Assembly (NCBI GenBank): GCA_902624185.1
Contig: CACNWU010000009.1
Span: 1 to 36,481, forward strand
DNA from: an uncultured Pelagibacteraceae bacterium
Lineage (GTDB): Bacteria; Pseudomonadota; Alphaproteobacteria; Pelagibacterales; Pelagibacteraceae
Length of the DNA stretch: 36,481 nt
Direction: 5' to 3'
Shown here: one piece after another, positions 21,924 through 28,579 of the stretch
How the letters are laid out: each line of letters starts with the position of its first letter
Numbering within the stretch: position 1 is the first letter of the stretch
Position numbers and translations under genes: made by a program
Notes under the pieces: generated by a model
Told to the model about the DNA's origin: nothing
Database searches by the model: none
The model's input: the letters and a program-made list of their open reading frames with translations, nothing else

Positions 21924-22925
21924 GTGTCTAATCAATTTAAAGCTCTTATACTTAACCAAGAAGGTGAGAACTTTACAAGAGAAGTAAAATCGATTGAAAA
22001 AAAATTTCTTAAAGAGGGAGATGTAACTGTTAAAGTTCATTATTCAGGTTTAAATTATAAAGATGCTCTGATATTAAAAAATGGAGCAAGATTGGTAAAA
22101 GAGTTTCCACATATACCAGGTATAGATTTTTCAGGAATTGTTGAAGAAAGTAATCATAAAAGTTTTAAGTCTGGTGATGAAATTATTTTAACTGGTTGGA
22201 GAGTAGGTGAAATTTATTTTGGTGGATATTCCCAGTATGCGAAAGTTAATGGAGATTTTCTGGTAAAAAAACCAAAAAATTTAGATTTAAGACAATCAAT
22301 GATTTTAGGTACAGCTGGATTAACAGCATTAATGTGTTCTTTCACAACAAAAGCAACTAGAGAAGAACTTCTTTTAGGAGAAAAAGTTGAAAATGTAATT
22401 GTCAGTGGTGCTTCAGGTGGGGTTGGTAGTATGGCGGTAATGATGTTAAGTAAACTTGGATGTAATGTGACTGCAGTAACAGGAAAAGATAGTAATATCG
22501 ATTATCTCAAATCTATTGGGGCTAAAAGCGTTATAAATACAAATGAAATGACAAAAGATGCTAGGCCATTAGATAAAGGATTGTGGGATGGTGCAGTAGA
22601 TACTGTCGGAGGTAAAGTTTTGGAAAATATACTTGCTCAAACTAAAGATGGTGGAATTGTTTCAGCGTGTGGAAATGCTGCAGATATAAAATTAAATACC
22701 ACAGTTATGCCATTTATAATAAGAGGTGTAAAACTTTGGGGGATAAACTCAGTGACAGCATCCATTAAAAGAAGACAATTTTTATGGAATGAAGCAGCAA
22801 AATTATTAGACTTTGATATACTTGAAAAATCAATTAAGGAAATTAAACTTGATGAGGTAATAAATATATTTCCCAAAATGTTAAAAGGAGAAACATCTGG
22901 TAGATATTTAATAAATTTAGAATAA
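21924..22925 (+). CDS. acuI: Acryloyl-CoA reductase AcuI (MDR, YhdH/YhfP type)
   Basis: A 333-aa medium-chain reductase starting with GTG one base after folE. The AcuI pattern is clear: FKALILNQEG, YSGLNYKDALILKNG, FPHIPGIDFSGIVE, ILTGWRVGEIYFGGYSQYAKV, the NADPH loop VSGASGGVGSMA and AVTGKDSN. AcuI reduces acryloyl-CoA to propionyl-CoA with NADPH and protects against acrylate formed in DMSP degradation. A LysR regulator follows by 2 bases and may control it. The YhdH/AcuI family assignment is strong; the DMSP role is inferred from studied relatives. Confidence 0.88.
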   Translation: MSNQFKALILNQEGENFTREVKSIEKKFLKEGDVTVKVHYSGLNYKDALILKNGARLVKEFPHIPGIDFSGIVEESNHKSFKSGDEIILTGWRVGEIYFGGYSQYAKVNGDFLVKKPKNLDLRQSMILGTAGLTALMCSFTTKATREELLLGEKVENVIVSGASGGVGSMAVMMLSKLGCNVTAVTGKDSNIDYLKSIGAKSVINTNEMTKDARPLDKGLWDGAVDTVGGKVLENILAQTKDGGIVSACGNAADIKLNTTVMPFIIRGVKLWGINSVTASIKRRQFLWNEAAKLLDFDILEKSIKEIKLDEVINIFPKMLKGETSGRYLINLE

Positions 22926-22927
22926 TA

Positions 22928-23818
22928 ATGGACTGGGACAAATTAAAAATATTTCATGCTGTTGCGGAAGCAGGAAGTTTTACTAATGCTACAATAAACC
23001 TTAATTTAAGCCAATCGGCAATAAGCAGACAAATTCAATCTCTTGAGCAAGATTTAAAAGTTCAATTATTTGAGAGACATGCTAGAGGTCTTACACTCAC
23101 TGAAAATGGTGAATATGTTTTTAAAACTGCCAATGAGGTAATATCTAAATTAAAAGAAGTAGAAACATCCTTAGGTGATCAAAAAAACAAACCCACTGGG
23201 AAATTAACAATTACAACTGTAAGAAGTTTTGGTACTCATTGGTTAACCCCGCGTATACAAGAATTTATGCGCTTAAATCCAGAAATTGAGATAGAATTAG
23301 TATTTGATGATAAGGAGCTAGATTTGAGCACCAGACAAGCAGATATAGGGATTTTTATGAGAAGACCTAAGCAACTTAATTATATTCAAAAAAAACTAGT
23401 TGATATTAAATACTTTATATATGGATCAAATAAGTATTTAGAGAAGCATGGAATGCCTAAATCAATTGGTGATTTAAATAAACATAAATTTATTTCTTTC
23501 GGAAAAGGGGCACCTTCTCCAGTTTATAACCCAGACTGGGCTTTAAAGCTTGGTATGCATGATGGAAAAAAAAGAAAATCCATAATGAAAGTTAATAGTG
23601 TAATGGGCTTACTTTTGGCTGTTGAGTCAGGTGTTGGTCTAGCAGCTTTACCAGAATATTTGGTAAGCAATTCAAATAATGTAATAAAAGTTCTCCCAAA
23701 ATCAGAGGGACCAATTACTGAGGCACATTTTGTATATCCTCAATCACTTAAAAATACTGCAAGAGTTCAAGCTTTTAGGAATTTTTTGTTTAGCAAAATT
23801 GGTGATTGGAAGGCATAA
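22928..23818 (+). CDS. LysR-type transcriptional regulator
   Basis: A 296-aa LTTR with the N-terminal winged helix-turn-helix (residues 1-60: KIFHAVAEAGSFTNAT, LSQSAISRQIQSLEQ, LFERHARGLTLTENG) and a substrate-binding effector domain (about 90-290). It begins 2 bases after acuI on the same strand, unlike the usual divergent arrangement, so it is probably in a folE-acuI-LysR transcript. The effector is unknown; acrylate or a related compound is a guess from position. Confidence 0.92.
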   Translation: MDWDKLKIFHAVAEAGSFTNATINLNLSQSAISRQIQSLEQDLKVQLFERHARGLTLTENGEYVFKTANEVISKLKEVETSLGDQKNKPTGKLTITTVRSFGTHWLTPRIQEFMRLNPEIEIELVFDDKELDLSTRQADIGIFMRRPKQLNYIQKKLVDIKYFIYGSNKYLEKHGMPKSIGDLNKHKFISFGKGAPSPVYNPDWALKLGMHDGKKRKSIMKVNSVMGLLLAVESGVGLAALPEYLVSNSNNVIKVLPKSEGPITEAHFVYPQSLKNTARVQAFRNFLFSKIGDWKA

Positions 23819-23869
23819 TTTAGAAAAATAGCTAAAAAAATAACTCTAAATATAAGGTGCGACATACTT

Positions 23870-23912
23870 GCGATTGATAATCATTATCGTTGAGAATAAT
23901 TATCATTCTCAA
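23870..23912 (+). promoter_or_regulatory. Tandem Fur boxes upstream of fbpA
   Basis: Two Fur-box-like sites lie side by side. 23870-23888 matches the classical 19-base Fur consensus at 16 of 19 positions, including an uninterrupted run GATAATCATTATC (23876-23888). 23892-23910 matches 15 of 19 and is itself part of a nearly perfect 23-bp dyad (23890-23912). They end about 24 bases before the fbpA ATG, so bound Fur would cover the promoter (a -35-like TTGATA lies at 23874-23879). This predicts iron-repressed transcription of fbpA. Confidence 0.85.
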
Positions 23913-23935
23913 ATAAACTTAAAAACGAGGAATTA

Positions 23936-24964
23936 ATGAAGAAAATATCGATACTAGCATTAATTGCATCTTTATTTGTTTCAGCTATCGCTGTTGCAAA
24001 CGAAGTTAACGTATTTAATGCAAGACATTATAAAGCAGACGCTGAGCTTTATTCCAAGTTTACAAATAAAACTGGTATTAAGGTTAATTTGATAAATGGA
24101 AAATCAGGTGCTTTAGAGAAAAGAATCATCAGTGAAGGTGCGGATTCATCTGCAGATCTTTATATTACAGCAGATGCTGGAAGATGTGGTGCAATGGATG
24201 CAAAAAAAACACTTCAAGGTGGTTTAACATCAGCAGCAATCAAAGCAGCTGTTCCTGCAAACTTTAGAACAAGTAAGTGGGTTGGAATCGCAAAAAGAGC
24301 TAGAATAATTTATTATTCACCAGAAAGAGTTACTGGTGCTGAATTATCTGGAATGACTTATGAAGGTCTAGCTGATCCTAAATGGAAAGGTAGATTAGTA
24401 ATTAGAAAATCTAGCAACATTTATAATAAATCTCTTGTAGCATCATTGATTAAAAACAATGGAAAATCTGCAACAGCTGAATGGGCTAAAGGTGTAGTAG
24501 CTAACATGGCAAGAACACCAACTGGTAATGACAGAGCTCAAATAATGGCAGTAGCAGCTGGCGAAGCTGATATTGCTGTAGCTAACACTTACTATTTAGC
24601 ACTTATGTTGTCAGGTAAAAAAGGTGCTGAACAACAAGCGGCAGCTAAAAAAGTTAAAGCTTTTTTCCCTAATCAAAACGATAGAGGGACGCACATGAAT
24701 ATTAGTTGTGCAGCTTTAGTAAAAGGCGCACCTAATAAAGCTAATGCTATCAAACTTGTAGAGTTTTTATTAACTCCAGAATCTCAAGAGCATTTTACCA
24801 ATAACACTTTTGAGTTTCCAATGATTGATGGTGTTTCACCAAGTCCATTAGTAGTAAATAACTTAGGATTAGACTTCAAACAAGATATGAAGACTAAGCT
24901 TTCTTCTTATGGAAAAAATCAAGCTGCTGCAGTAGAAGTAATGACAGCCGCAGGTTGGAAATAA
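23936..24964 (+). CDS. fbpA: Periplasmic Fe(III)-binding protein of an ABC importer
   Basis: A 342-aa protein with a signal peptide (residues 1-21, cleavage near AVA-NE). It is an FbpA/SfuA/AfuA-type ferric-binding protein: N-terminal NVFNARHY with His31 and Tyr32, and the paired iron-ligating tyrosines Tyr219-Tyr220 in AVANTYYLALM. It delivers free Fe3+ to the FbpB-FbpC transporter encoded at 25900-28579. The Shine-Dalgarno is GAGGAA. Tandem Fur boxes precede it. SAR11 relatives have a strongly iron-limitation-induced protein of this kind (called SfuC in the literature, as I recall). Confidence 0.95.
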   Translation: MKKISILALIASLFVSAIAVANEVNVFNARHYKADAELYSKFTNKTGIKVNLINGKSGALEKRIISEGADSSADLYITADAGRCGAMDAKKTLQGGLTSAAIKAAVPANFRTSKWVGIAKRARIIYYSPERVTGAELSGMTYEGLADPKWKGRLVIRKSSNIYNKSLVASLIKNNGKSATAEWAKGVVANMARTPTGNDRAQIMAVAAGEADIAVANTYYLALMLSGKKGAEQQAAAKKVKAFFPNQNDRGTHMNISCAALVKGAPNKANAIKLVEFLLTPESQEHFTNNTFEFPMIDGVSPSPLVVNNLGLDFKQDMKTKLSSYGKNQAAAVEVMTAAGWK

Positions 24965-24985
24965 GTGCAAGAAAAGAAAAAATTT

Positions 24986-25135
24986 ATGTCTGACATTGAT
25001 TTAAATAAATCTTCGAAAGCATGTTCCCCATGTCTTAATGAAGTTAAGAAAATTAATGAAAGAATAAATAAAAGAAAACTTAAAGAAATTAAATCAAAAG
25101 AAGTTCCGCATCTTCTTAAAGTATTTAATTTTTGA
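24986..25135 (+). CDS. 49-aa CxxC protein within the iron locus
   Basis: A short frame starting MSDIDLNKSSKACSPCLNEV, then a very basic tail (KKINERINKRKLKEIKSKEV) and ending HLLKVFNF. An in-frame GTG at 24965, directly after the fbpA TAA, would add 7 residues. One CxxC motif followed by a helix rich in Lys/Arg could bind metal or nucleic acid. Its location right behind a Fur-controlled gene suggests co-expression under iron limitation. No family recognised; a chance ORF cannot be excluded. Confidence 0.45.
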   Translation: MSDIDLNKSSKACSPCLNEVKKINERINKRKLKEIKSKEVPHLLKVFNF

Positions 25136-25194
25136 ATTTTCTTAATTTGTGTCCATCATAAATGGGGATTTGTGGTGGACACATAAAGAAAATT
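25135..25194 (+). terminator. Long hairpin between fbpA and the peroxiredoxin gene
   Basis: Two stacked stems: 25135-25143 with 25186-25194 (9 bp) and 25149-25158 with 25073+100-25182, that is 25173-25182 (10 bp, one G-U), with a small internal loop between them and a T-rich stretch after. It begins at the last base of the 49-aa ORF stop. It is best read as a terminator or transcript-end stabiliser for fbpA, lowering read-through into the rest of the locus, as is common where the binding protein must be in excess. Confidence 0.6.
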
Positions 25195-25206
25195 AAGTTT
25201 TGTTTC

Positions 25207-25306
25207 TTCTGTTGAAGGAGTGTTCAATATGATCAAGTTGTCTCCTTAATTATAGTGGGCACTCTTTGAACAGAAAAAACCTCAATAGGAAACGAAGGAG
25301 ACAATT
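25207..25306 (+). promoter_or_regulatory. Structured leader of the peroxiredoxin gene with a loop perfectly complementary to its Shine-Dalgarno
   Basis: A 19-bp hairpin (25207-25225 with 25257-25275, one G-G mismatch and a few G-U pairs) exposes a 31-base loop. Inside the loop TTGTCTCCTT (25238-25247) is the exact complement of AAGGAGACAA (25295-25304), which contains the Shine-Dalgarno just before the ATG at 25307. Pairing would make a pseudoknot and block ribosome binding. The same CTCCTT can also pair with AAGGAG at 25215-25220 in the hairpin's own 5' arm, giving a mutually exclusive alternative. This looks like a translational switch; ligand or trigger unknown. Confidence 0.6.
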
Positions 25307-25852
25307 ATGAAATCAGGATTTAAACTCAATAAAGTAAACTTCAAAATGAGAGAAGGTGATAAAGCTGAAAACTCTAATGAGTGTGCCATAGGTGGTAAAT
25401 GGGTTGATAAAACCACAGATGATTTTTTTAAAGGTAAAAGAGTTGTATTATTTAGTTTGCCAGGAGCTTTTACACCTACATGCTCTTCACAACAACTTCC
25501 AGGATTTGAAAAAAATTGTGAACAATTTAAAAAATTAGGAGTCGATGAAATTTACTGTTGTTCAGTTAATGATGCTTATACTATGAACGCTTGGGCAGAA
25601 AAAATGGAAATAAAAAATGTAAAATTAATCCCAGATGGAAATGGTAATTTTACAAAACAAATGGGAATGTTGATTTCCAAAGATCATCTTGGATTTGGTA
25701 ATAGAAGCTGGAGATACATGGCTGTGATTACTGATGGAATAGTTGAAAAATGGTGGGAAGAACCTGGTATTAATAATGATGGTTCAGATGATGATCCTTA
25801 TGGTGAAACAATGCCTGAAAAATGCTTAGAATATCTAGCTGGAAACTGCTAA
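25307..25852 (+). CDS. Peroxiredoxin, Prx5 type
   Basis: A 181-aa thiol peroxidase of the AhpC/TSA-Prx5 family. The peroxidatic Cys59 is in LPGAFTPTCSSQQLPGF (51-67); CC at 84-85 and a C-terminal cysteine (ending AGNC) are candidates for resolving thiols. Lacks a signal peptide, so cytoplasmic, reducing peroxides. The gene stands between fbpA and fbpB-fbpC of an iron importer, suggesting peroxide defence coupled to iron uptake. It has a very strong Shine-Dalgarno AAGGAG that the leader structure may hide. Both a tandem CC and the long C-terminal extension are worth a note. Confidence 0.92.
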   Translation: MKSGFKLNKVNFKMREGDKAENSNECAIGGKWVDKTTDDFFKGKRVVLFSLPGAFTPTCSSQQLPGFEKNCEQFKKLGVDEIYCCSVNDAYTMNAWAEKMEIKNVKLIPDGNGNFTKQMGMLISKDHLGFGNRSWRYMAVITDGIVEKWWEEPGINNDGSDDDPYGETMPEKCLEYLAGNC

Positions 25853-25899
25853 CAAGTAATTTCTTTTTCAAAACATATATTTATATATAAAATTAACAT

Positions 25900-27525
25900 A
25901 TGTTTAGAATTTTAAATATTTGGTTTCTCTCATCTTTTTTAGTTTCAATTTTTGTAATCATACCAATTTTAACTGTGTTCTTAAGTTTTTTTGAAAATAC
26001 ATCAGATTATTATGAGCTTTTAAAAAATACATTCTTGATTGAATATATATTTAATTCATCTATTTTATTAATAAGTGTACTGGTATTAACATTTATTATA
26101 GGTACAGGGTCAGCCTATTTAGTCTCTTTCTATGAATTTCCATTTAGTAATTTTTTTAAATGGGCACTTATTTTATCTTTTGCAGTTCCTCCCTATATTT
26201 ATGCCTATTCATTAACGGCTTTTTTTGAAAACTACGGAACTGCATATACAATTTTAAAAAATATTTTTGGAGATGGTAATTATAATAGGAGCATACCTAA
26301 ATTTGATGGTATGTTAGGCGCTATATTATCAATTTCTTTTTCATTATACGCTTATGTATATATCTTAGCCAGAGCGTCTTTTTTATACCAATCACAAAAT
26401 CTAATTGACTTGGGAAAAAATATTGGTTTTTCTAAATTTCAATCTTTTTATAAGATTATATTACCTGCTGCTCGTCCAGCAATAGTTGCAGGTTTATCAT
26501 TGGTCGCAATGGAAACATTAGCAGAATTTGGTGCGGTTGATTTTTTTTCAATCAATACCTTAACAACTGGAATTTATAATTCGTGGATAGCTTTTGATGA
26601 CCTTGCATTTGCCAATAGAATATCTTTTTTTCTATTATTATTTATATTTGCTTTATTTATTTTAGAAAATTTATCTAGAAAAAATGCAAAATATCATTTT
26701 AATGCTAAGGGTGGGTTTAAGCAAAAAGAAAAAAATAAACTTTTTGGCAAAAAATCCTTTTTTGCATTTGCGTTTTGTTTTTTAATTTTCTTTTTGAGTT
26801 TTTTATTTCCTTTGAGTCAAATGTTGTATTGGACAGTAAAATTTCCTGAAAATTTATTTGATTTAAAAATTTTAGAACTTTTGATAAATACTCTTTATTT
26901 GGTTTCTTTATCAAGTTTAATTTTAATAATATTTTCTTTAATATCTAATTATGGCAATAGAGTTTCAAAAAACAAAGCATTAAATTTTATGTCTACATTG
27001 TCAATCTCAGGTTATGCAATTCCTGGTGTAATTTTAGCAATTGCTTTTATAACTTTTATAGCATGGCTTGATGAAAGTGTGATTAAAACATTGGGCTTTT
27101 TATCAATAAAAAAATTATTCATAGGCTCAATTCTTGGTTTAGTTTTAGTTTATTTTGTAAGATTTTATTCATTGGCATTTAATGGAATTAAGTCGGGATA
27201 TGAAAAGATTAATATTTCAGTTGATGAAAGTGCTTATTTATTAGGCTATTCTAAAAGAAAAACATTTATGAATATTCATATTCCCTTTTTAAGAAATTCT
27301 CTTTTATTTATTATAATTTTGATTTCTTTAGAAATTATAAGAGAACTTCCAATAACTTTAATTTTAAGGCCATTCAATTTTGAAACTTTTGCTACTACAG
27401 CTTATATTTCAGCATCTGAAGATTTATTAGAGGCTGCAGCAGTGCCAGCATTATTTTTAATTTTAATTGCAAGTTTCTTTATTATAATAACTTCAAAATA
27501 TATTTTGAGAGAAACAAATGAGTAA
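25900..27525 (+). CDS. fbpB: Iron(III) ABC transporter permease
   Basis: A 541-aa inner-membrane protein with about 12 hydrophobic helices in two homologous halves, each with an EAA-type loop: first NLIDLGKNIGFSKFQSFYKIILPAARPAI, second DESAYLLGYSKRKTFMNIHIPFLRNS. This fused double-permease form is typical of FbpB/SfuB. It forms the channel for Fe3+ delivered by FbpA. Its end overlaps fbpC by 8 bases, showing translational coupling. No Fur box is seen directly upstream of it. Confidence 0.93.
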   Translation: MFRILNIWFLSSFLVSIFVIIPILTVFLSFFENTSDYYELLKNTFLIEYIFNSSILLISVLVLTFIIGTGSAYLVSFYEFPFSNFFKWALILSFAVPPYIYAYSLTAFFENYGTAYTILKNIFGDGNYNRSIPKFDGMLGAILSISFSLYAYVYILARASFLYQSQNLIDLGKNIGFSKFQSFYKIILPAARPAIVAGLSLVAMETLAEFGAVDFFSINTLTTGIYNSWIAFDDLAFANRISFFLLLFIFALFILENLSRKNAKYHFNAKGGFKQKEKNKLFGKKSFFAFAFCFLIFFLSFLFPLSQMLYWTVKFPENLFDLKILELLINTLYLVSLSSLILIIFSLISNYGNRVSKNKALNFMSTLSISGYAIPGVILAIAFITFIAWLDESVIKTLGFLSIKKLFIGSILGLVLVYFVRFYSLAFNGIKSGYEKINISVDESAYLLGYSKRKTFMNIHIPFLRNSLLFIIILISLEIIRELPITLILRPFNFETFATTAYISASEDLLEAAAVPALFLILIASFFIIITSKYILRETNE

Positions 27526-28579
27526 AAATTTTTTTGAAGTTAAAAATGTTGATTTTAGTGTTGGGGGAAAAACCAAAGTAAAAAATGTATCTTTTGTTAT
27601 AGAAAAAGAAGGGGATATAGTATGTCTCTTAGGTCCTTCTGGAATAGGAAAAACTACAATACTAAGAACAATTGCTGGATTAGAAAAAATTAGTGGAGGT
27701 TCAATATTCCTTAATGGTAAACAATTGTCGTCAGAGAATATAAATATTGAACCAGAGGATCGAAACATTTCTCTTGCTTTTCAAGATAATAGTCTTTTTC
27801 CCCATTATACTGTTGAAAAAAATATTTTATTAGGTTCTGAAAGAAATCGAGAAAAAAAAGAAAATAAAATTAGCTTAAAAGAAATTGTTGATTTACTTGA
27901 TATCTTTCACATACTAAATAAATATCCTCATCAAATAAGTGCTGGTGAAGCACAAAGAGTTTCGCTTGCGAGATCTCTGATAACTCAACCAGATCTATTG
28001 TTATTAGATGAACCGCTTTCTAATGTTGATCAAAGTTTTAAAGAAGAAATTCAAGTAAGATTGAAAAAAATTTTAAATAAATTAAAAATTACAACTATAA
28101 TAGTCACTCATGACTCTTATGAGGCATTTTATTTGGGCTCGAAATGTGGAATAATTTTAAATCAAGAACTAAAACAATTTGATGATCCTTATAAAGTTTA
28201 TCATTTCCCAAACTCTGTTGAAGTTGTGAATTTTTTAAATAGGGGAATATTGATACCAGCTAAAGTGACCGGCAAAAATACTCTTGAAAACTGGGATTTA
28301 GGGACCATTGAAGGAAATTTTATTAAACAATACCCAAAAGGGTCTAATGTTCAATTACTTTTGCAGCCGGAAGACTTAGAGCATGATGATAAAAGTAATT
28401 TGAAACTCGAGGTAGTTGATAGAAAATTTAGAGGCACAAATTTTATTTATACTTTAAAAACATCAAGTAATACTTTAATTCCTGTTTTTGTTCATTCACA
28501 CCATATACATCAACATGAAATTGATGAAAAATTTGGTATTAAAAGACCAATTCATATTGATCATATAGTTTGCTTTTAA
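27518..28579 (+). CDS. fbpC: Iron(III) ABC transporter ATP-binding protein
   Basis: A 353-aa ABC ATPase: Walker A GPSGIGKTT (39-47), Q-loop around AFQDNSLFPHY, signature SAGEAQ (141-146), Walker B LLLLDEP (160-166), and the H-loop TIIVTHDSYEAF. The C-terminal about 100 residues form a TOBE-like regulatory domain, as in FbpC/PotA. It powers FbpB. Together with fbpA and fbpB this completes the Fe3+ importer. Confidence 0.94.
   Translation: MSKNFFEVKNVDFSVGGKTKVKNVSFVIEKEGDIVCLLGPSGIGKTTILRTIAGLEKISGGSIFLNGKQLSSENINIEPEDRNISLAFQDNSLFPHYTVEKNILLGSERNREKKENKISLKEIVDLLDIFHILNKYPHQISAGEAQRVSLARSLITQPDLLLLDEPLSNVDQSFKEEIQVRLKKILNKLKITTIIVTHDSYEAFYLGSKCGIILNQELKQFDDPYKVYHFPNSVEVVNFLNRGILIPAKVTGKNTLENWDLGTIEGNFIKQYPKGSNVQLLLQPEDLEHDDKSNLKLEVVDRKFRGTNFIYTLKTSSNTLIPVFVHSHHIHQHEIDEKFGIKRPIHIDHIVCF

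Follow-up and report, generated by a model that had tools for sequence, protein, structure and literature searches.

The question raised by this locus is what is done by a long hairpin that stands in the mRNA leader of a peroxiredoxin gene (prx) within an iron uptake operon, and whose loop could mask the ribosome-binding site of that gene. The window, i.e. the whole analysed stretch of 36,481 nucleotides, is a contig of SAR11 (Pelagibacteraceae), bacteria abundant in the ocean, in agreement with most titles of related records. On its forward strand the operon reads sfuC, a small ORF, hairpins H1 and H2, prx, sfuB, and an ATPase gene. The promoter of the iron-binding protein gene carries inverted repeats (23872-23912), read from the sequence and present with the same text upstream of sfuC in relatives, which resemble a Fur box. 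sfuC (23936-24964) codes for a periplasmic ferric-iron-binding protein recognized by Pfam SBP families, whose nearest solved relatives are for the most part annotated as iron-binding proteins (E from 1e-89 to 1e-50 for the first eight). It is followed by an ORF of 56 amino acids with a CxxC motif (24965-25135), matching no Pfam or NCBIfam family, whose strict pattern is present in 60 of 100 regions from relatives; in many of these its tail reads AAG GAG GTT CCG CAT, which is GC-rich for this genome. H1 (25136-25193), a fold with a GGGG tetraloop of a type also found in relatives (e.g. L167 and L172), occupies the usual position of the sfuC-sfuB intergenic hairpin. Downstream of H2 lie prx (25307-25852), a Prx5-like gene with a Pfam Redoxin match and with HI0572, 1-Cys Prx, and Prx5 among the solved relatives of its product, sfuB (25900-27525), assigned by Pfam and homology to an iron ABC transporter permease and lacking a recognizable SD core upstream of its start, and the gene for the ABC transporter ATPase (27518-28579; Pfam).

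H2, the hairpin under study, comprises positions 25207-25275. The sequence-only reading described it as a 19-bp hairpin with a 31-base loop, of which the stem was retained and the open loop was not. The lower stem, 25207-25226 with 25256-25275, has 19 pairs flanking one G.G mismatch, and the 29 nucleotides between its arms hold nine further pairs (25228-25233 with 25249-25254, and 25235-25237 with 25245-25247), so that the apical loop is the 7-nt UUGUCUC (25238-25244), set within AAG/CUU. The 25203-25309 segment folds with -33.2 kcal/mol versus -19.3 kcal/mol in shuffles (z -4.1), and the 16 aligned copies of H2 show a mean column identity of 86%. The exact 10-base complementarity of the loop to the Shine-Dalgarno (SD) region was confirmed: TTGTCTCCTT at 25238-25247, the anti-SD segment (UUGUCUCCUU) made of the apical loop and three closing-stem bases, faces AAGGAGACAA at 25295-25304, i.e. 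the prx SD AAGGAG (25295-25300) with four more bases, the ATG (25307) following six bases after the SD. Seven of the ten loop-side bases are free and three need opening; keeping all ten single costs a computed 2.8 kcal/mol, and the 10-bp duplex is worth -13.4 kcal/mol, so the pseudoknot is favourable on paper, with a net gain of ca. 10 kcal/mol from which pseudoknot penalties are still to be deducted. The linker between H2 and the SD partner has 19 nucleotides (25276-25294), which by our estimate is long enough to span the H2 stem. A loop complementary to the SD and a sufficient linker, two features of an SD-sequestering H-type pseudoknot, are thus both found in the window, the reach of the linker being an estimate. 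A second AAGGAG, pointed out earlier as a competitor for the loop, is indeed present in the 5' arm (25215-25220); it is locked within the lower stem and is therefore judged a weak competitor.

The claim that such a match is unlikely to arise by chance holds, at ca. 0.003: a complement of at least 10 bases appeared with a frequency of 0.0036 when the downstream part was shuffled and of 0.0025 when both parts were (20,000 shuffles each). Since an SD placed opposite an anti-SD-like loop yields six bases for free, the sterner question is how often ACAA would follow a given AAGGAG, and the probability of this is 0.0045. Strong SDs are scarce here, AAGGAG preceding two of the 39 window ORFs taken as genes. 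Among 71 hairpin loops located 5' of these 39 ORFs, that of prx ranked first (p 0.01 versus shuffles), and p<0.05 was reached in 2/71. A separate background scan covering 28 of the 39 ORFs gave one other long match, of 10 nt, AT-rich, at ORF 12363; the rule used in that scan missed the prx hairpin itself.

Among relatives, 46 prx-related loci were found, and prx was detected at E<=1e-40 in 20 of 201 genus genomes. H2 recurs with few changes in 12 other leaders of prx or of a prx homologue, one hairpin sequence being common to three of them and the encoded proteins of L065 and L067 being merely 35-38% identical to the query; UGUCUCCU is invariant across the 16-row H2 alignment. The sequence-only reading implied a pairing of loop and SD conserved in orthologues, and this expectation failed. 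All 12 other leaders keep the loop, and none contains AAGGAG, GGAG, GAGG, or AGGA between the hairpin and the first ATG; moreover, the gap between hairpin and AUG is 3-15 nt in these leaders versus 31 nt in the window. As none of the 12 related leaders carries an SD partner while the loop is unchanged, the partner is private to the window, and SD pairing cannot account for the conservation of the loop in the other leaders. The loop is thus conserved beyond cis pairing with the SD, and its conserved role, perhaps that of binding a protein, is the main uncertainty of the analysis.

Nor was control tied to peroxide defence borne out, because H2 is kept where prx is missing and where its product has lost the expected motif. 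In four genomes (G379, G330, G212, and G434) H2 occupies the same place with prx absent and sfuB next, and at four loci (L065:3001-3489, L067, L105, and L107) a prx homologue without the catalytic PGAFTPTC motif lies in the same slot and the hairpin is retained. L065 reads LFSINEDLNSQN in place of the motif, its loss in L105 and L107 was read in translation, and for L067 it was deduced from similarity to L065. The H2 hairpin is old. Its stem is mostly fixed, with 12 of 28 pairs invariant. In G330 and G212 two basal pairs are altered on both sides (5-75 from UA to AU, and 9-71 from GC to AU, the latter change also occurring in L065); two-sided change in 2/28 pairs is equalled by 231 of 500 shuffles. 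The covariation score is better than that of shuffles, 3/500 of which reach it, and covariation of H2 overall is modest. Of the covariation anticipated in relatives, the H2 stem shows little, two-sided changes being as frequent as in shuffles, and the pairing of loop and SD is absent from the 12 related leaders; a limited form was found in positionally equivalent sfuB hairpins of other lineages, described below. A search with a 16-base pattern gave 24 matches in 300 genomes versus about 75 for the reversed-pattern control, most of the 24 lying at other loci. One further leader (L054) comes from a contig labelled as a Porticoccaceae MAG, in which a 69% identical peroxiredoxin follows AAGGAGG and the H2 model is unmatched, pointing to transfer or misbinning.

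Hairpins at this operon boundary are not confined to H2. Two overlapping samples were searched for the sfuB protein, which was present in 212 of 300 genomes of the genus and in 119 of 147 of the order, and upstream regions were read from 160 genomes. In most genus genomes the binding-protein part is separated from the next gene by a hairpin whose stem varies and whose loop is mainly of pyrimidines (UCUCCUU, UUUACCC, UAUUACCCC, UUCCC) or a GGGG tetraloop; inspection by eye showed none in G387, G402, and G500, and for most of the family's other genera (L295-L302) it gave no clear case. Script-based clustering placed 173 of 201 loci, the window and the prx loci included, in 49 clusters led by 38 sfuB and 11 prx leaders, the other 28 loci being left out because the start was unassigned, the stem was missing, or no hairpin reached -9 kcal/mol. 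Starts and hairpins were partly assigned automatically, a few of them wrongly (the start of L316; L022, represented by H1). When the hairpin with up to 40 nt was folded, z was below -2 in 48/49 clusters (median -4.7), in a set of loci preselected for a hairpin of <=-9 kcal/mol. In certain sfuB leaders, e.g. L159, L248, and L281, the SD AAGGCGGA has TTATAA on either side and could itself occupy the loop of a small A-U hairpin (UUAUAA-GGCGGA-UUAUAA).

The pairing of each loop with its own initiation region was compared with 200 single-base shuffles of that region, which sets the lowest attainable p at 0.005. Values of p<=0.01 were obtained for five of 49 clusters (the window, L189, L231, L324, and L289) with ca. 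0.5 expected, and of p<0.05 for seven, adding L210 (13 loci) and L291, with ca. 2.5 expected; L189 and L324 form one group, so the enrichment is not one of independent events. The window has the lowest energy of all 49 clusters (-16.7 kcal/mol), unmatched by any other cluster's initiation region when combined with the window loop. Against swapped partners p<0.05 was reached in 4/49 clusters (the window, L189, L210, and L054, the last being an unrelated leader), again with ca. 2.5 expected. Significant pairing was absent from 42 of 49 clusters, including L181 (18 loci), L287 (20 loci), and the potC-type prx cluster L035 (28 loci); the leads of L181 and L287 combine UCUCC-type loops with the SD AAGGCGG.

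Changes on both sides of a helix are found in leaders with UUACCC loops. In 22 such sequences two-sided stem changes occur at 10 of 11 pairs, and the whole structure is equalled by 0/500 shuffles. The core pairing of loop and initiation site is formed in 99% of cells of this set and is nearly invariant, and as it never changes on both sides it proves nothing. The partner of the loop is GGGUAA, which in groups X (AGGGUAAA) and Y (GGGUAAUA) belongs to the SD, whereas in G408 (AUGGGUAAU) and, with one mismatch, in G082 (AUGGAUAAUAAA) it lies at the start codon. The flanking positions do vary. On the 5' side of UUACCC the adjoining base forms UA in group X (10 of 13 members), AU in Y, in G408, and in G082, and UG in G384, while in the remaining three X members, having a shorter loop, this pair is lost and the next two are regained; on the 3' side UA is formed in G384 and 12/13 X members and AU in G082, with no pair in Y or G408. 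Of 120 lineage permutations, four, the true one counted, do at least as well as the true assignment of loops to initiation sites, and 4/720 with the window added; over five UUACCC lineages, most of which were picked out by eye ahead of the tests, this is no more than suggestive. In the five-lineage matrix the loops of L288, L289, and L291 pair better with the start site of another lineage. Compensatory change is thus seen at two flanking positions of the UUACCC-loop sfuB leaders, with weak permutation support, and in some SAR11 relatives the loop and the start site of the next gene may have changed together. Among 41 loci with a TTACCCTTTYC loop, GGGTAA or AAAGGGTA occurs within 230 nt downstream in one alone, L231. 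This sfuB leader, which matches potC RNA at 906-974, has the loop UACCCUUU with an exact 8-base partner, AAAGGGUA, which lies a long way downstream, 23 nt 5' of the sfuB start.

potC RNA (Rfam RF01751) precedes, and is defined by, transporter or peroxiredoxin genes. Its model matched another type of prx leader (L028, 92 bits) and the sfuB leaders L231 (84 bits) and L193 (53.9 bits), and scored below the 44-bit gathering cut-off in L194 of group X (32.8 bits) and L288 (36.4 bits); it was found above the cut-off in 33 of 300 genus genomes, the hits adjoining prx on its 5' side (e.g. at 22805-22874 of G052, with prx at 22884). H2 resembles potC RNA in operon position, potC hairpins occupying this slot ahead of prx (L028) or sfuB (L231 and L193), and the 25207-25307 segment has the location of a potC RNA, directly 5' of prx and then sfuB in a marine bacterium. 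It differs in its stem and in its loop, UUGUCUCCUU, which has no UUUACCC and lacks the conserved UUUACCCUUUCC loop of potC; the potC consensus contains the conserved pyrimidine stretches UCUCC and UUUACCCUUUCC. RF01751 gave no match in the window at gathering (44 bits), none at E<=10 over 24960-25420, and none at E<=0.01 in the own genome, so H2 of the window is not a detectable potC member. The columns of the published table that lists potC are, we assume, RNA, cis-regulatory, and riboswitch. The slot occupied by H2 is therefore partly known already through potC RNA, whose row reads "y y ? Marine only" in excerpts of Weinberg et al. 2010 (PMC2864571), passages that give no mechanism for it. 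The phrase "potC RNA" is not used in the literature among the matches listed. In Meyer et al. 2009 the sfuC/SAR11_1239 intergenic region is listed with its motif unnamed, which is the sole mention of sfu in the searched text.

Other known systems share parts of the arrangement. SAM-V and SAM-II riboswitches, as described in excerpts of PMC6061858, follow a similar H-type pseudoknot logic, the SD being contained in a short helix beside the pseudoknot, and SAM-V occurs in P. ubique. H2 differs from both in its long first stem of 19-28 bp, with no triplex-forming strand identified, in the lack of an Rfam match, and in the genes concerned. The absence of a known riboswitch core, noted from the letters alone, was upheld: riboswitch families of Rfam (SAM-II, SAM-V, and others) were unmatched, both at gathering in the window and at E<=10 over 24960-25420, and the window matches at E<=10 were mostly microRNA families far under their cut-offs. 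The related L194 gave a lone sub-threshold SAM-II match (19.4 bits versus a gathering value of 44, E 0.12). Intergenic hairpins are also known at binding-protein/permease boundaries of the malE-malF type. Like these, H2 follows a highly expressed binding-protein cistron; what sets it apart is a conserved anti-SD loop, which in some lineages complements the initiation site. A cis-acting leader hairpin in a potC-like position, with the H-type logic of SD pseudoknots, combines kinds already known.

Our tentative reading, somewhat short of probable, is that H2 acts as a potC-like translational brake on the cistron following sfuC, which in the window takes the form of a loop-SD pseudoknot. The apical anti-SD loop would pair with the prx SD as an H-type pseudoknot, and the ribosome would have to displace ca. 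10 bp for initiation. In the 12 other H2 leaders, where 3-15 nt separate the base of the stem from the AUG, the stem would block the ribosome sterically, and in some sfuB leaders the loop can pair with the SD or the start codon, so that lineages might realize the brake differently, by closeness of the stem or by pairing of loop and start. Formation of the pairing in the cell, repression, and any regulation of the brake are what we infer. What stands of the translational switch originally proposed is that the iron locus has a conserved structured leader and that a loop-SD pseudoknot is plausible on thermodynamic grounds; sensing of a ligand, iron, or redox state is unsupported.

Retention of the loop in leaders devoid of an SD, in the four genomes without prx, and before degenerate prx genes would also be expected if H2 were a recognition hairpin for a trans-acting factor, e.g. 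a cold-shock-type RNA-binding protein reading the UUGUCUCCUU loop, with the SD match secondary or accidental. Excerpts of the P. ubique study (PMC2864753) contain the authors' proposal that RNA-binding cold-shock proteins act on mRNA, and a gene for a cold-shock-domain protein is located at 717-905 of the window (minus strand), being the sole CSD match in the own genome, which is 80% complete. This explanation is less likely than the brake, though it is to be taken seriously. Against it, at the same position the loop varies by lineage (UCUCC, UUUACCC, GGGG), and the candidates Hfq and CsrA were found in none of 31 genomes (0/31 each, the own genome being 80% complete), in searches whose controls were positive, so these two usual helpers of RNA-based regulation seem to be missing. 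An unlikely alternative, also to be taken seriously, treats H1 and H2 as static hairpins guarding the 3' end of abundant sfuC mRNA or setting its processing, to give much binding protein and little permease, with the loop incidental. It would agree with the many lineages having hairpins with changing stems at this boundary, with the lack of an anti-SD in the GGGG-tetraloop versions, and with data for P. ubique under iron limitation in excerpts of PMC2864753, in which sfuC mRNA rises 16-fold and sfuB mRNA 10-fold. However, the loop of H2 is kept, as is the greater part of the stem sequence, needless for a generic stabilizer, and in the window H2 follows a separate H1.

A ligand-binding riboswitch responding to iron, redox state, or a metabolite, with the SD as its expression platform, is very unlikely. 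The highly conserved sequence inside a structured leader would suit it, as would the question mark given to potC RNA, an occupant of the same slot, in what is taken to be the riboswitch column; against it, H2 is a lone hairpin without a junction, the 12 relatives have no SD to control, and Rfam riboswitches were unmatched in the searches described above (at gathering in the window and at E<=10 over 24960-25420). Hardly credible is a leader peptide read from a small uORF within the loop, AUG AUC AAG UUG UCU CCU UAA. AAGGAG stands eight bases before it, a fitting SD and spacing in the window, and its start is ATG or GTG in most relatives; the start is, however, ATA in L056 and L067, the stop is missing in L026, L105, and L107, and since neither codon is conserved this ORF was rejected.

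If the potC-like translational brake is real, the conserved, lineage-rewired class of hairpins in iron operons would provide a concrete and testable element for the decoupling of mRNA and protein, and the orphan potC RNA would gain a candidate mechanism and a gene context of iron uptake and peroxiredoxin. According to excerpts of PMC2864753, protein levels were largely decoupled from mRNA in a cultured SAR11 strain under iron limitation, and in P. ubique the sfuC protein rose 27-fold, whereas suf transcripts rose while their proteins did not; the P. ubique data are compatible with the brake and are no test of it. A wider proposal, speculative and unlikely, is that SAR11 iron operons carry fast-evolving RNA brakes whose branches include the orphan potC RNA and H2, and whose pyrimidine loop serves as a built-in anti-SD for the cistron next to that of the iron-binding protein. 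Wherever pairing is used, loop and start would co-evolve, and the pairing would shift between SD and start codon. RNA structure alone would then let these bacteria, whose genomes are reduced and gave no Hfq, set or switch how much binding protein is made relative to permease and peroxide defence.

Several other roles and origins of the hairpin were tried and rejected. An intrinsic terminator does not fit, as H2 is followed by an A-rich stretch with no U-tract, and a scan of 23780-26000 gave only 24139-24154. Pairing of the loop with the SD of sfuC itself, a 3'-to-5' feedback, had a mean energy of -8.2 kcal/mol for own pairs and -8.8 kcal/mol for swapped ones (27 distinct leaders), and 4916 of 5000 permutations were at least as strong as own pairs. 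A kissing interaction between the GGGG loop of H1 and the H2 loop was judged by eye only, H1 being without GGGG in L065 and L067; pairing of UCUCC loops with AAGGAGG in the small ORF was likewise judged by eye, and AAGGAGG also occurs beside a GGGG loop (L130). A mobile or repeated element was dismissed, because under strict filters the hairpin model hits one place in the own genome, on both strands as a palindrome, and a DNA search gave no second long match. Viral carriage was rejected as well, the 17-base core being present in two viral contigs without the hairpin flanks. It is worth adding that in the second family of the order (L304, L307, L308, L311, and L312) hairpins between the binding-protein gene and the next gene carry another recurring loop text, CCGTCT ... 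TTAGTATC.
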